Source: Nonlabens tegetincola (GTDB lineage: Bacteria > Bacteroidota > Bacteroidia > Flavobacteriales > Flavobacteriaceae). Taken from it: a stretch of 64,000 nt of DNA. Numbering within the stretch: position 1 is the stretch's first letter; each line of letters opens with the position of its first letter. Location: assembly GCF_002954355.1 (NCBI RefSeq), contig NZ_MQVV01000012.1, positions 1 to 64,000 on the forward strand. Direction: 5' to 3'. This document shows positions 56,505 through 62,473 of the stretch, in pieces. The notes beneath the pieces were generated by a model, which saw only the letters and a list, made by a program, of their open reading frames with translations, ran no database searches and was not told the DNA's origin. Both the position numbers and the translations under genes were made by a program.

Positions 56505-57560
56505 TTAGTCATTCATTTCTTCATTATACTCTTCACGAGCTTCTTTCAACCTTTGTGACATAGGTTCATCAGTGTCGTTCAATTCCTCTAAGTATTCTTC
56601 AATAGCATCTCTACGATTCTCGTCATACTTTTTACGAGCTTTCAACATTTCTTTGTTTAAGTCATAAAGAGCCTCATCGATTTCTTCTAAATTTTCAAGA
56701 TTTTCATCTAAAGTAGCTGTGGCTTTTTCATCTTGATATTCTTTCATTTCTTTTTGAACATCTTCTACAGCATCCATTACATCATCTACTTTTAAGTACT
56801 CAGGCATGTTGTTAAGCATAGAATTAAAATCCGTAACTAGTGTTTGAGCATAAGTAATTTTTTGGTCTTCTTGTGCATTCATCATATTCATACGGTCCGT
56901 TTTCACAGTCTCGTAATCATTAAAATCTACAATCGTTATTATACCTTCATCATCATAGTTTACATTACTCACAAAGTCTGCATAGTTTGCAAGTTCTTCA
57001 TCCTCATAACCGTCAAATCTTAATCTGGCATCTACAATTTCATCATTTAAATCCTCTACAGCTTCTTGAATATCCTCGATGTGATCTTTAATTGTACTTT
57101 CTTTTGTTGATTCATCCTCAAGATCTGCAACTAATTTTTTCATTGCTTTCTCGACGTCATCAACTTCTTTCATGATAACATTAGTTTTCAAGTAAGCTGG
57201 CATTTCTTCTACAAAGGTTTGAAATGCTTGATATGCATTTTCACTATTCATTTCATCACGTACATTAGGTGATGTTGATAAGTTTTTTACCTGATTTTGT
57301 AATTCTCCATAGGCTGTAAAATTTGAAATATTCACGCTCCCATCGTCCATTACCTGGACATTTGTTTTCATGTCTTGGGCCATGCTTTCTGCCTCATTCT
57401 CTGTATAGCTTACGTATTCTCTTGATACGTCTCCTATATCATTGTAAGCTTGTTGCATTTCATTACCAGCATCCTCTACTAGTTCTTCCGTATTTTTCTT
57501 TTCATTATTACAAGCAACCATGGCAGCGGCTACTATTAAACTTATTCCAATCTTTTTCAT
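56505..57560 (-). CDS. acidic helical lipoprotein with an internal duplication
   Basis: The lipobox is MVAC (Cys17). The mature protein is very acidic and helical and contains two repeats of about 130 residues offset by 132. MPAYLK (120-125) and MPEYLK (252-257) are each followed by a V-DDV-K-M-type helix, and DLNDEIVDARLRFD (170-183) corresponds to DLNKEMLKARKKYD (300-313). The opening DDGSVNIS (72-79) corresponds to DDEGIITI (203-210). No known domain is recognised. It probably sits in the periplasm on a membrane or at the surface. It ends in a terminator, so it is a single-gene unit. Confidence 0.78.
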   Translation of the reverse strand: MKKIGISLIVAAAMVACNNEKKNTEELVEDAGNEMQQAYNDIGDVSREYVSYTENEAESMAQDMKTNVQVMDDGSVNISNFTAYGELQNQVKNLSTSPNVRDEMNSENAYQAFQTFVEEMPAYLKTNVIMKEVDDVEKAMKKLVADLEDESTKESTIKDHIEDIQEAVEDLNDEIVDARLRFDGYEDEELANYADFVSNVNYDDEGIITIVDFNDYETVKTDRMNMMNAQEDQKITYAQTLVTDFNSMLNNMPEYLKVDDVMDAVEDVQKEMKEYQDEKATATLDENLENLEEIDEALYDLNKEMLKARKKYDENRRDAIEEYLEELNDTDEPMSQRLKEAREEYNEEMND

Positions 57561-58842: not shown

Positions 58843-59271
58843 ATGTCATTTTCAAGTTTATTTGAATCAGGAGAATCTACTAGAAATAAAAGCCATTTAG
58901 CTTCATTAGTAAATATTGCAATTACAAACGGTGTAATCTCTGATGAGGAATTAGTTATACTGGGACGTATTAAAACTAAATTGAGTATAGCAGATTCTGA
59001 TTTTGAGGCTATTATAAAAAATCCATCTAAATACCCAATTAATCCGCCTACTACAAATGAGGAGCGCATTCAATGGTTACACGATCTTTTTAAAGTTGTC
59101 TTTGCCGATCATAGTATGGACGAGGATGAGTACAGATTACTAAAAAGATATGCAACAGCCATAGGATACAATGATGCCGATGCTGAATATCTAGTAAAGC
59201 GCAGTATCGAAATTTTCTCAGGACATCTAGCTCTTGAAGATTATCGATACCTTTTAAATAAAGACAGGTAG
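58843..59271 (+). CDS. TerB-like helical protein
   Basis: The 142-residue protein has the TerB pattern of two helical repeats: LASLVNIAITNGVISDEELVIL and WLHDLFKVVFADHSMDEDEYRLLKRYATAIG. The acidic DGxIsxxE-type turns are often metal-binding in the family. TerB proteins are linked to tellurite resistance and stress response, but most members, like this one, stand outside ter operons. A TATATTTG box (58818-58825) lies upstream. It converges on the histidine kinase gene, with stops 1 bp apart. Confidence 0.82.
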   Translation: MSFSSLFESGESTRNKSHLASLVNIAITNGVISDEELVILGRIKTKLSIADSDFEAIIKNPSKYPINPPTTNEERIQWLHDLFKVVFADHSMDEDEYRLLKRYATAIGYNDADAEYLVKRSIEIFSGHLALEDYRYLLNKDR

Positions 59272-59272
59272 T

Positions 59273-60760
59273 CTAAATAAATTTTTTGATCTTCAAGTTG
59301 CTGTATACGGATTCTAATAATTCGTCGTCAGTATATGGTTTTTGAACCACTTGTTTGAATCCAGATTTCTTAAATTCCGATATTCGCTTTTTGTCAGATT
59401 CTGTCGTTAGAGCGATTACCGGGATTTTTTTATTGTGATCATTTGCAAACTCTTTAATCATGTTAAGGAGTTCAATCGCGTCCACTTGAGATAGACTTGA
59501 TGACATTAAAATAAGGTCATAGTCCTTGTTTTCAACGGCGTTTAATAAATCTCTAGGATCAGAAAATACTATTGTATTAAAGTTCTTTTCATTTACAAGA
59601 ACTTTAATGGCTGTGTATTGTGTAATTCCGTTGTCCTCTGCAATAATAATTTTTGCTTTTTCAGAAAACGTGGGCTTTGTTGGAGATTCAGTTGGAGCTG
59701 CTTTAGGAATATCAACATTCAAAGGAACTTTCACTCTCAAATTTGCTACTTGTACACTATTGCCTGATTCGTCTTTTTCGATATATAGACTTCCATTGTA
59801 AACATCTAGAAGTTCTTTGGCTATTGAGAATCCCAAACCTTTAATCTGAATGTCACTAGAGAGTTCAGGAAGATTATTAGACGCTACCGTTTCTGGAATA
59901 ACACCTTCTCCAGAAATTTTAAATCGCAGACTTGCTTTACTAGCACGTCGTTGATTTTCTTTAACGGTTAAAACTATGTTTTCTCCATTATTAAAATAGA
60001 TCGCGTTTTCTATAAGGTTTGTCAATATTTGATCTAACCTACGCTTATCAATTTCAATGTATTCAGGTACTTGAGAACCTATTTTTAAGGAAAATGAAAA
60101 TCCTAAATTAGATGCTTTGGTTGTGTATTTAAACTTAAAATTCTCAAGATATTCTATAAAATTGATTGTTTCTGGATTGAGCTCAATCTGATTTCTTTTA
60201 AGAAAAGACAACTCAATAATATCTTCAAGAATCTTCTTTAAGTTTTCACTTTGTTCATAGATAGCTTCTACAAGCTTATTTTGCTCTAGCGGCAAATCAC
60301 TTTTCACTAGCATAGATGAGAACGCACTTATTAGTGTAAGCGGTGACTTCATCTCGTGAGAAAAGTTTGAAATAAATTTGTTTTTGAAGGAGGCAGCCTC
60401 CTCTAACATATCATTTTTAAGTTCTAGAACTTCATTGAATATGTAAGACTCATTTCTTTTTTGAGCAATTTCTTGTAGTCTAGAATAAAATACGCTGTTA
60501 TCTACAAGCTGAATCGTTCTATTTGAAGCATTCTTACTGAAGCTTATGTCTAAGAGCTTGTCATGTATTTCAACACAGTTTAGTTTTTTTTCCTCTGATT
60601 CAAAGTATAAATCAACCTGTGTAAAAAAAGGATGGAATTGCTCTATGCTACTTCCTTCTTTTAGATTAAAAATAATATCGTTTGATGAAATTACTTGAAA
60701 GTTCTCATCAAGGACAATTATTTGAGAATTTTGGGGATTGATGTCTAGGTGCGGTGTCAT
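59273..60760 (-). CDS. hybrid sensor histidine kinase with degenerate receiver
   Basis: Residues 1-100 may be a divergent PAS-like sensor. A HisKA domain follows with the phosphorylated histidine in NFSHEMKSPL (His135), then an ATPase domain with NLIENAIYF (N box) and GLGFSIAKELL. The G1 box, normally D-x-G-x-G, reads SGEGV (283-287). The receiver (369-495) keeps AEDN, the threonine in ALTTE and the lysine in VVQKPY, but the phosphorylatable aspartate after DLILM is Ser420 (DLILMSSS). No transmembrane helix is seen, so it is cytosolic. It overlaps the Ras-like GTPase gene by four bases and is the last gene of the operon. Confidence 0.88.
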   Translation of the reverse strand: MTPHLDINPQNSQIIVLDENFQVISSNDIIFNLKEGSSIEQFHPFFTQVDLYFESEEKKLNCVEIHDKLLDISFSKNASNRTIQLVDNSVFYSRLQEIAQKRNESYIFNEVLELKNDMLEEAASFKNKFISNFSHEMKSPLTLISAFSSMLVKSDLPLEQNKLVEAIYEQSENLKKILEDIIELSFLKRNQIELNPETINFIEYLENFKFKYTTKASNLGFSFSLKIGSQVPEYIEIDKRRLDQILTNLIENAIYFNNGENIVLTVKENQRRASKASLRFKISGEGVIPETVASNNLPELSSDIQIKGLGFSIAKELLDVYNGSLYIEKDESGNSVQVANLRVKVPLNVDIPKAAPTESPTKPTFSEKAKIIIAEDNGITQYTAIKVLVNEKNFNTIVFSDPRDLLNAVENKDYDLILMSSSLSQVDAIELLNMIKEFANDHNKKIPVIALTTESDKKRISEFKKSGFKQVVQKPYTDDELLESVYSNLKIKKFI

Positions 60761-61239
60761 GTAAGCATCATTTTTGTGATTCTTTCAAACATGCGCTGCA
60801 CATTATTACCTTCTTTGGCACTTACCAAAATATCTAAAAAATCAAATTCATCTTTCTTTTCGGCCATCATACCTTTAGGGATTAGGTCAGACTTATTTCC
60901 GACCTTTAAGATAGGGGTTTTTTGATATTTATTTTGAAGAAAGTTTAAATGTTCATCAACTTTACTAAAAGTTTTTGGTCTACTAATATCTGCTACATAT
61001 ATAAACCCATGAGTTCCAAGGAGGTATGCAGGTCTCACTTCTTCAATATCATCTGTTCCTTCTGTATCCCAAATGATAAGATTAACATCATTATCATTTA
61101 AATTAAGTTGTTTTTTCATGATATGGACACCTATAGTAACTTTATAGTCCTCAGAAAACTGATCTTCTACAAACCTTCTTATCAGGGATGTTTTACCAAC
61201 TCCAAAACTTCCTACTATTACAATCTTTTTTGATACCAT
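60757..61239 (-). CDS. Ras-superfamily small GTPase
   Basis: The 160-residue protein is a stand-alone GTPase of Ras/Rab shape. The P-loop is GSFGVGKTSL (10-19), the switch I threonine lies in YKVTIG (Thr35), switch II is WDTEGTDD (57-64), the base-specificity motif is NKSD (115-118), and SAK is at 140-142. The position of Ras Gln61 is threonine, so intrinsic hydrolysis is probably slow and needs a partner. It is related to prokaryotic MglA/Rup-type GTPases. Its start is 1 bp after the longin/roadblock-like gene, and its end overlaps the kinase start. Confidence 0.93.
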   Translation of the reverse strand: MVSKKIVIVGSFGVGKTSLIRRFVEDQFSEDYKVTIGVHIMKKQLNLNDNDVNLIIWDTEGTDDIEEVRPAYLLGTHGFIYVADISRPKTFSKVDEHLNFLQNKYQKTPILKVGNKSDLIPKGMMAEKKDEFDFLDILVSAKEGNNVQRMFERITKMMLT

Positions 61240-61240
61240 A

Positions 61241-62065
61241 TTAATTTCCTAATTCAAATTGGGAATATTGCTTTATGAGAAATTGCTGTAATTCTTCTCT
61301 TTTTGAAATAAGTTTATTTTTATTAATGTTTTGACTGACCTTTAAATTATGGTCTTCTAATTTATTTTGCAAGTTTTCAGTAAATGTACCGCTTATCGCA
61401 CTGGCTATGTAGTACTGGTGAAAACTATGTAGATGAATTTCATATAAATCATATTCTATAGACTGTAAATTACGGGTGGATGTTTTAAAAGCATCTTCTA
61501 CAAATGCTTTAATTGCTGTTAACATGCCACTAATCATATCTTCATCCAGGGTTGCTTTAATTTGATAACTTCCTAATAATATTCCGGAGCCTTTTTCAAT
61601 TATAAAAACTTGTTCTAATTCTGCCTCGGCAAGATCGCTTATGATAAGTTCTTCTTCCTTGACACCTGTGAACATACTCTTTATTTTTCTTTTAATGGTT
61701 TGAACTGAAAATACGTCCTGAGTAGTTTGCTCTATACGCTCAGATAAAATTTTAATTTCTTGTGCGATATATTTTTTTATCATTTGCCCCATAATTGGGT
61801 ATAGGGCTTCAACTACTTGATCTTTTGATTCGGCGATTTGAGTTTTTAAAGTCTCGGTAATAATTGGTCCTAATTCTTGAGGAATACGTTCGGTAAATTC
61901 TAGTAATTCGTCTTGTATTATTGGAGATACCTTTTCTGAAAGTTTAGCACGTTCACGCAAAGTTTCTTCCAGCTTACTGATTTTTACAGAAATGCTCTGT
62001 GCATATTCACGTTCGTCAGTAAGTAAGAGAGATTTTAGTAGTTCTAATTTCTCATCGGTATTCAT
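61241..62065 (-). CDS. GTPase-partner protein resembling the front part of OmpA-family proteins
   Basis: With the ATG at 62065 the protein has 274 residues. An N-terminal coiled coil (about 4-40) leads to LGPIITETLKTQIAESKDQ, ALYPIMGQMIKKYIAQEI and KRKIKSMFTGVKEEELI. A compact alpha/beta domain starting LEQVFIIEKGSGILLGSYQ follows and recalls roadblock/longin sensors. From memory, this series of motifs matches the N-terminal half of large OmpA-domain proteins of Proteobacteria and Cyanobacteria, but the OmpA domain is absent. The next gene is a Ras-like GTPase, which such sensors bind or activate. The family link needs a profile search. Confidence 0.7.
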   Translation of the reverse strand: MNTDEKLELLKSLLLTDEREYAQSISVKISKLEETLRERAKLSEKVSPIIQDELLEFTERIPQELGPIITETLKTQIAESKDQVVEALYPIMGQMIKKYIAQEIKILSERIEQTTQDVFSVQTIKRKIKSMFTGVKEEELIISDLAEAELEQVFIIEKGSGILLGSYQIKATLDEDMISGMLTAIKAFVEDAFKTSTRNLQSIEYDLYEIHLHSFHQYYIASAISGTFTENLQNKLEDHNLKVSQNINKNKLISKREELQQFLIKQYSQFELGN

Positions 62066-62076
62066 CAAGGAACCTT

Positions 62077-62430
62077 TTACTGGGCTTTAATTTTCTCCCC
62101 AAGTTCTATTAATGAATCTCCAAGCATTTTTCGACTTGTTTTAGCATCATCTAGCTCGTCTAGTCGGTCTTCCATCTTGCTTTCAAGATCAGTAAGACGA
62201 ATGTTTAGATCAGTAGACAAACTATCAATACTTTTTGATAGCTCTTCTCTAGCATCGTCGATTAAATCTTGAAGTTCCTGCTTTTTTTTCTGAAGATCTT
62301 TTTTAAGTAGTTCAAATTCAGAATCATATTGTTGTATGTTTTCTCCAAAAATGAGGTTTTTTATAGCCTCTAATTTTGAATTACTATCAACAACAGCTTC
62401 GTTAGGGGTGTTTTTTTCAGGTTGGGCCAT
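62077..62430 (-). CDS. coiled-coil protein of the GTPase operon
   Basis: The 117-residue protein is almost wholly coiled coil (residues 35-110), charged, without membrane segment or signal. Its N-terminus KLEAIKNLIFGENIQQYDSE resembles that of the next gene's product (KLELLKSLLLTDEREYAQSI), which suggests a common origin or shared binding site. It lies 11 bp upstream of that gene and 43 bp downstream of fbp. The ATG at 62430 is chosen over a GTG one codon earlier. No family was recognised. Confidence 0.75.
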   Translation of the reverse strand: MAQPEKNTPNEAVVDSNSKLEAIKNLIFGENIQQYDSEFELLKKDLQKKKQELQDLIDDAREELSKSIDSLSTDLNIRLTDLESKMEDRLDELDDAKTSRKMLGDSLIELGEKIKAQ

Positions 62431-62473
62431 CACAATACATTTTCAATTAGCTAAAATACCATTTTTTATTAAA

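Follow-up and report, generated by a model that had tools for sequence, protein, structure and literature searches.

Gene content of the locus

The window analysed here is a stretch of 64,000 nucleotides from Nonlabens tegetincola (contig NZ_MQVV01000012.1, positions 1 to 64,000). Between positions 59,273 and 62,430 it carries four consecutive genes, which encode a coiled-coil protein, a partner protein with a predicted longin domain, a Rab-like small GTPase, and an output protein of the hybrid histidine kinase type (Table 1). The described gene neighbourhood and motifs place these genes, as a flavobacterial representative, among the Group 1 Rup small-GTPase systems. As stated in a first-pass annotation made from the sequence alone, the four genes lie on one strand, and with ATG starts the intergenic gaps are 11, 1, and −4 bp, the last being an ATGA overlap. 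The closest named relatives of the locus are Nonlabens loci.

Above the Pfam cut-off, the output protein matches HisKA (residues 126–185), HATPase_c (238–338), and Response_reg (371–485). The partner and the coiled-coil protein match zero Pfam families above the cut-off, and an NCBIfam scan added nothing for either. The earlier claim that the coiled-coil protein shares the N-terminal pattern of the partner was not confirmed. A profile comparison of the coiled coil with the partner N-terminus gave no significant match. In a position-specific scoring matrix test, 62 of 86 best windows lay in the first 90 residues, where about 30 would be expected, the sequences being mutually related, and 9 of 86 beat 99% of shuffles, which is a weak result.

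Table 1. Features of the four-gene set and its convergent neighbour (positions in the window)
Feature	Position	Strand	Description	Basis
Coiled-coil protein gene	62077..62430	-	117 amino acids (aa) from ATG; 118 from upstream GTG at 62433	Open reading frame (ORF) list
Partner protein gene	61241..62065	-	274 aa from ATG; 275 from TTG at 62068	ORF list
Partner N-terminal helical region	61631..62065	-	To about residue 146 (TTG numbering)	AlphaFold2 (AF2); predicted local distance difference test (pLDDT) block means 40-68
Partner predicted longin domain	61244..61624	-	Residues 149-275, b-b-a-b-b-b-a-a	AF2, Foldseek, and VIA-align
Rab-like small GTPase (Rup type) gene	60757..61239	-	160 aa	Pfam Ras, E 1.7e-34
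Hybrid histidine-kinase-type output protein gene	59273..60760	-	495 aa	HisKA, HATPase_c, Response_reg
Output-protein predicted PAS-fold N-terminal domain	60500..60727	-	Residues 12-87	AF2 and structural matches
Invariant Gln codon (Q100)	60461..60463	-	Helix after PAS domain	Conservation across output proteins
ATP-lid G1 box region	59888-59926	-	Lost	Kinase comparison
Ser420	59501..59503	-	Receiver phospho-acceptor position (usually Asp)	Comparison of 75 full-length kinases
TerB-like gene	58843-59271	+	Convergent with kinase gene, 1 bp away	Pfam

Linkage and occurrence in the Flavobacteriaceae

The set was surveyed across 149 genomes of the Flavobacteriaceae, the window's family, at thresholds of E ≤ 0.001 for the partner, E ≤ 1e-8 for the coiled-coil profile A3, and E ≤ 1e-25 for the GTPase profile. 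The partner is matched in 32 of these genomes, and the coiled coil is matched in exactly those 32. The GTPase profile is matched in 30 of the 32 and in 0 of the remaining family genomes, and the two partner-bearing genomes without a GTPase match hold fragments, at a contig edge in G079 and interrupted by stops in G062. In the first family search, the 32 matching genomes gave 30 loci, the window included, and the order coiled coil–partner–GTPase was found in all 30. The named loci are the best 80 of 527 candidates. A full partner ORF is present in 78 of them, and L085 and L116 were left out because contig ends cut inside the partner. The coiled coil, partner, and GTPase genes have the same order and the same strand in 78/78 named loci, and a kinase follows the GTPase in 76; no kinase was detected in L077 and L096, where the sequence stops 1.2–1.4 kb past the GTPase. 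Collectively, the coiled coil, partner, and GTPase form a conserved linked unit, and the earlier reading of the genes as a linked GTPase module passed this check of co-occurrence across genomes.

The partner protein and its predicted longin domain

In the AF2 model of the partner, the helical N-terminal half has low confidence, and in the C-terminal part the blocks 151–170 and 211–270 reach pLDDT values of 85–94. From residue 150 onward, the predicted order of elements is strand, strand, helix, three strands, and two helices, which is the order of longin domains. Structural alignment of the model with VIA-align gave a best Z of 13.0, with a root-mean-square deviation (rmsd) of 2.9 over 120 residues, and a Z of 10.5 at rank 50. 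By title, the best 50 rows comprise adaptin and COPI chains, Sec22b, VAMP7, Mon1-Ccz1, Fuzzy-Inturned, and TRAPP subunits, and the Lokiarchaeal longin 8yqg is also among them (Z 10.8, rmsd 2.9 over 118). We take the chains in these rows to be longin-superfamily members. The alignment spans partner residues 149–275 and takes in the final helix, as is the case for longins. The result of Foldseek by itself is weaker, with two matches at E ≤ 0.001 and a list that includes Rag and roadblock chains. Although present in the Foldseek list, roadblock chains do not occur among the best 50 VIA-align rows, a result that is still compatible with a kinship with roadblock domains.

Sequence comparison, an independent line of evidence, gave weak matches in the same direction. 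The 78 flavobacterial domains matched 30 Pfam families, and among the 25 of 30 listed, Intu_longin_1 (PF19031) is the most frequent (8/78, best E 0.025), and Fuz_longin_1 (PF19036; 4/78, E 0.025) and Sybindin (PF04099; 3/78, E 0.036) also occur; all three are sub-threshold. For 16 cross-phylum domains, Fuz_longin_1 was matched in 3/16 (best E 0.012) and Intu_longin_1 in 1/16 (E 0.018). A matched control of 72 PAS-type domains, mostly from the same operons, matched 33 families, with no longin among the 25 of 33 listed. The NCBIfam scan of the longin domain returned eight chance-level families, none of them longin or roadblock. No membrane helix was seen by eye in the partner. Collectively, the conserved domain of the partner is predicted from the modelled fold to be a relative of longins that lies below any curated sequence cut-off. 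The first-pass description of this protein as longin-like is supported by the predicted fold together with the weak sequence matches, and the fold in the model is not an unrelated domain.

The GTPase

The window GTPase carries the motifs GSFGVGKT (G1), WDTEGT (G3), NKSD (G4), and SAK (G5). The non-standard switch II that had been noted in it was confirmed: in WDTEGT, the DxxG pattern is retained, and Thr stands at the Gln61 position. All 29 relatives in the profile share the G1 Gly and Lys, the G3 Asp (Asp58) and Gly, the NKxD motif, and the SA of G5 without variation (29/29). The family profile matches 933 distinct PDB sequences, and the best 60 of the 933 are all Rab/Ypt/Sec4 proteins, a Thorarchaeota Rab included. 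The GTPase is of the Rab-like type, and its catalytic Gln is missing. Among 82 parsed copies, the Gln61 position holds Asn in 29, Thr in 16, His in 13, Phe in 7, Tyr in 6, Gln in 5, Lys in 4, and Ser and Leu in 1 each, and three unparsed copies have Thr, Gln, and Lys.

The output protein: PAS domain, invariant Gln, and kinase

Residues 1–132 of the output protein were modelled by AF2 with a pLDDT of 88.6, and the strands follow the PAS order and are succeeded by a long helix. PAS structures appear in the best 50 rows with modest Z values of 8.5–9.6, the best (9.6) having an rmsd of 2.1 over 79 residues. By sequence, the N-terminus gave no Pfam PAS match, and the output protein is predicted from structure to begin with a PAS domain.

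Conservation was analysed in 83 flavobacterial output proteins, namely 75 full-length kinases and eight shorter ORFs, six of the latter being orphan copies. Q100, located on the helix that joins the PAS domain to the output module, is present in 83/83, Q13 in 82/83, F45-F46 in 83/83, C62 in 80/83, and D71 in 82/83. When the first 170 residues of 14 outputs from several classes were aligned, the Q100 column was the sole invariant one. Furthermore, the ungapped motif D/N/E-x-T/S-x10-Q occurs in 83/83 flavobacterial outputs versus 7/75 in a control stretch, and it is present in 8 of 11 distant outputs (NtrC, cyclase, and hybrid kinases), these eight including two near-identical pairs.

The catalytic His is retained in 75/75 full-length kinases. 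At the receiver phospho-acceptor position, the 75 kinases have Asp in 48, Lys in 16, Ser in 8, Ala in 2, and Thr in 1, so the Asp is lost in 27/75. The ATP-lid G1 box is lost solely in the window and three other Nonlabens loci, its Asp being kept in 71/75, and the receiver Asp is lost in the same four loci, with Ser in the window. These losses suggest, at the level of sequence, that the window kinase and the other Nonlabens copies may be pseudokinases. The hybrid-kinase call of the first-pass annotation is right as to the HisKA, HATPase_c, and Response_reg domains and has to be qualified in this lineage by the loss of the ATP-lid G1 box and the receiver Asp.

Two GTPase genes are present in 7/78 named loci (L069, L070, L073, L074, L082, L084, and L086). 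In a GTPase tree, which contained no named reference Rup or MglA sequences, the first copies group apart from the second copies. In six of these seven loci, the two GTPase genes flank a kinase-free orphan PAS domain of some 200 aa; in L082 it was undetected. Additionally, a short PAS ORF lies ahead of the single GTPase in four more loci (L083, L095, L110, and L140). Because a kinase-free PAS domain is retained beside the GTPase, these loci suggest that the PAS domain and the GTPase are the interacting pair. Separately, L090, L092, L094, L098, and L099 have two complete PAS-kinase genes, one after the other, with no second GTPase.

Relatives outside the family

A phylum-wide sample of 395 genomes was searched with the partner profile, which matched 14, two of them within the family. 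Outside the class, the partner homologues of 11 genomes have open frames of 598–738 aa, and Pfam OmpA was found at the C-terminus of 3/3 long homologues scanned. This agrees with the first-pass view that the 274-residue protein resembles the front of large OmpA proteins and itself lacks OmpA. Thirteen loci from 12 genomes outside the family (12 loci outside the class and one within it) were examined for neighbours. The coiled coil is present in 12 of them and a GTPase within 14 kb in 10, on the opposite strand in 4 of the 10.

A tblastn search of plasmids with one longin-OmpA protein matched four records. In the three plasmid loci examined (Rhizobium, Mesorhizobium, and Nostoc), the coiled coil, longin-OmpA, and GTPase genes stand in a row in 3/3. 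The Rhizobium and Nostoc homologues of the partner end in OmpA; among the plasmid longin-OmpA proteins, OmpA was assigned by Pfam in two and by the record's own annotation in the third. The downstream output gene varies and encodes a hybrid kinase, an NtrC-type activator, a kinase plus an NtrC regulator, or an adenylate/guanylate cyclase; cyclic di-GMP enzymes are also named among the outputs in the published account of Group 1 (PMC4316618). A tally of 254/294 from a search with a profile that included the OmpA domain was disregarded because it counts ordinary OmpA proteins; among the matches listed, four reach the longin part. No relatives were found on viral contigs, and a PHROGs scan gave weak matches alone, to families without clear meaning.

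Neighbouring genes

The gene upstream on the same strand is one that we take to encode fructose-1,6-bisphosphatase (FBPase). In the 78 named loci, FBPase lies beside the unit in 55 and TerB in 52; FBPase is absent in 23, TerB in 26, and both in 22. Since they are missing in so many loci, the unit has moved independently of both, and they were rejected as parts of it and regarded as landmarks of one location. The TerB-like neighbour is mostly missing where the unit has moved. Farther along, at positions 56505-57560 (- strand), lies a gene for a helix-rich, acidic, 351-aa protein with a lipoprotein-like start and zero Pfam families above the cut-off.

Proposed mechanism and alternative explanations

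We propose, with somewhat better than even confidence, that the set is a Group 1 Rup system in which the GTPase is loaded by a longin platform, probably GEF-like (that is, resembling a guanine nucleotide exchange factor), and docks onto the PAS domain of an exchangeable output protein. The longin protein would dimerise to form a platform for the GTPase and would most likely promote GDP/GTP exchange, the role that longin platforms have towards Rabs. A GEF-like role is our first guess because the longins picked up by the weak sequence matches belong to Rab exchange factors. Once GTP-bound, the GTPase would dock onto the output protein at its PAS domain and signal helix and change the state of that protein, and the invariant Gln might complete either GTP hydrolysis or the docking face, which would end the signal. 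The coiled coil may act as a scaffold. The output module would be exchangeable, with a hybrid kinase here and an NtrC-type regulator, other kinases, or an adenylate cyclase elsewhere, and the kinase of the window's genome may have binding, not catalysis, as its mode of signalling. Envelope sensing is suggested by the peptidoglycan-binding OmpA domain at the C-terminus of the platform in other bacteria; flavobacteria are without this anchor. We infer both the functional steps and the direction of the signal.

Several observations weigh against this model. The partner model, built on 27 related sequences, has a mean pLDDT of 64.4, and residues 171–210, which hold the central helix and third strand of the longin, lie at 57–65. 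Every Pfam longin match is far below its curated cut-off, and chance families score as low or lower in the 78-domain scan (DicB 5/78, E 0.013; THDPS_N 4/78, E 0.01; Pox_D5 1/78, E 1.6e-4). When 10 of the 16 cross-phylum domains were searched singly, Fuz_longin_1 appeared in one, at E 0.22; the window's own longin domain gives no Pfam longin match, only the restriction enzyme family BsobI by chance (E 0.0083). Profile searches of PDB structures with the partner found no longin and a roadblock protein at E 0.11. Since no curated cut-off is reached and these PDB searches found no longin, we call the domain a predicted longin. Moreover, 3 of the 11 distant outputs are without the Gln motif at the aligned place: L049 has the pattern but not at the aligned Gln, and L052 and L053 are without it. 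Gln stands at the Gln61 position in 6/85 GTPase copies, so an in-trans Gln is not required everywhere. Finally, three loci of one genus (L050, L051, and L055) carry the coiled coil and longin-OmpA with no GTPase within the 14 kb examined.

Reverse signal flow is the strongest alternative and is, in our judgement, unlikely: the PAS-kinase would sense a cue and act through its Gln as a GTPase-activating protein or regulator of the GTPase, and the longin protein would be the effector, acting on the envelope through OmpA elsewhere. Q100 is indeed the best conserved output residue while the GTPase is without Gln61 in 79/85 copies, PAS domains are usual sensors, the partner carries OmpA outside the family, and longin/roadblock proteins may serve as effectors or scaffolds besides acting as GEFs, as is also indicated in part of the literature (PMC10933270). 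However, the output end is swapped among kinase, NtrC, and cyclase while the longin–GTPase pair stays, which better fits a downstream output, and the OmpA anchor is absent in flavobacteria. Less probable still is decay of the module in Nonlabens, with the kinase as a remnant and either the GTPase–longin pair or nothing still working. The confinement of the G1 box loss to the four Nonlabens loci, where the receiver Asp is lost as well, would fit such decay, but the four genes have uninterrupted frames in the window as well as in three other Nonlabens loci and a further genome of the genus, the catalytic His is universal in the full-length kinases, Q100 and the PAS residues are conserved, and receiver loss is common elsewhere. 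An MglA/MglB-type polarity system steering gliding shares the general plan of a Ras-like GTPase with a roadblock/longin-superfamily partner, and gldN is present in the window's genome, but it is already largely refuted and very improbable, since G3 Asp58 is invariant (29/29), the MglB roadblock family PF03259 has no match at E 0.001 in the window's genome (G000) and a match in 1 of 17 genomes searched, and GldN occurs in 146/149 family genomes, cassette or not; membership was rejected, and the gliding link raised by the first-pass annotation is not indicated.

If the Group 1 Rup domain is a longin, bacteria would hold a compact, operon-coded Rab–longin pair open to purification and testing. 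A description left without function in 2014 would then become a direct biochemical question, namely whether the longin exchanges nucleotide and whether the Gln acts on the GTPase, and the answer would bear on the origin of Rab regulation. Longin domains are usually treated as parts of eukaryotic and Asgard-archaeal membrane traffic in the literature consulted (PMC4917890, PMC10933270), and they are considered to derive from MglB-like roadblock domains (PMC3521125). As a tentative extension, which we regard as possible though on balance doubtful, bacteria might own a Rab–longin pair in which the longin platform, encoded next to those bacterial GTPases that are closest to eukaryotic Rabs, is their exchange factor, and the Rab/longin-GEF partnership might be older than, or shared with, bacteria and have served envelope signalling first, not vesicle traffic.

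Comparison with known systems

Group 1 Rup GTPases were defined by Wuichet & Sogaard-Andersen (2014), whose section on them describes a matching gene neighbourhood and, at that time, counts no experimentally characterised Rup member (PMC4316618). Shared features are the coiled coil, the conserved-domain protein, the small GTPase without the G3 Gln, the absence of MglB coupling, and an output protein with an invariant N-terminal Gln (PMC4316618). In particular, the window GTPase is a Ras-superfamily protein of 160 aa, within the 150–240 aa range given for Group 1, with a Ras match at E 1.7e-34 and eukaryote-like G motifs whose key residues are invariant in 29/29; it has Thr in place of the catalytic Gln of G3, and a coiled-coil gene is its neighbour. 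The conserved-domain neighbour corresponds through its homologous domain, OmpA being missing in the window and present in relatives. The passages on Group 1 note the missing G3 Gln, suggest a Gln supplied in trans, and indicate the invariant Gln of the output protein (PMC4316618), and Q100 presumably corresponds to the Gln of the 2014 logo. There the conserved-domain protein often has an inner-membrane helix and OmpA, whereas the flavobacterial partner is without OmpA; the word "often" implies that OmpA-less forms may have been among the members (PMC4316618). The conserved domain was left without function in that account (PMC4316618), and here it is a predicted longin. In contrast to the Group 1 description, flavobacteria have as output a hybrid kinase with a predicted PAS domain, in which the phospho-acceptor is often lost. 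The first-pass annotation knew of no described function for the set. In the open-access full-text literature searched, we likewise found no characterisation of it and no naming of its conserved domain as a longin, but the set itself is described, as Group 1 Rup (PMC4316618). It is an uncharacterised, widespread set of an already known kind rather than an undescribed one. The present analysis adds that a longin domain is predicted for the partner and a PAS domain for the output protein, that the invariant Gln maps to the signal helix following the PAS domain, that the partner has a flavobacterial form without OmpA, and that residues of the kinase and receiver have been lost.

The eukaryotic longin platforms for Rabs (Mon1-Ccz1, the TRAPP core, and Fuzzy-Inturned) likewise place a longin fold beside a Rab-like GTPase, their chains are among the best 50 structural rows, and the weak Pfam matches fall in the same families. 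The set differs from them in being bacterial, operon-coded, and linked to a PAS signalling protein and, in other bacteria, to a peptidoglycan-binding OmpA domain, and its GEF role is putative. MglA/MglB and the actinobacterial conservons (CvnA-D) share a Ras-like GTPase with a roadblock/longin-superfamily partner, and the conservons also have a kinase and a fourth protein, as here. Unlike MglA/MglB, from which the first-pass annotation had correctly set the make-up apart, the GTPase retains the G3 Asp (Thr in MglA), and the partner follows a predicted longin rather than roadblock order, with no roadblock match in the genome. Finally, the Asgard roadblock/longin and Rab proteins are prokaryotic longins and Rab-like GTPases too, represented here by 8yqg (Z 10.8) and by the Thorarchaeota Rab in the PDB list. 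In the Asgard strain MK-D1, small GTPase genes are reported, in the part of the source that treats them, as generally not in operons with longin genes (PMC10933270), whereas in the Nonlabens set the GTPase and predicted longin genes are adjacent.

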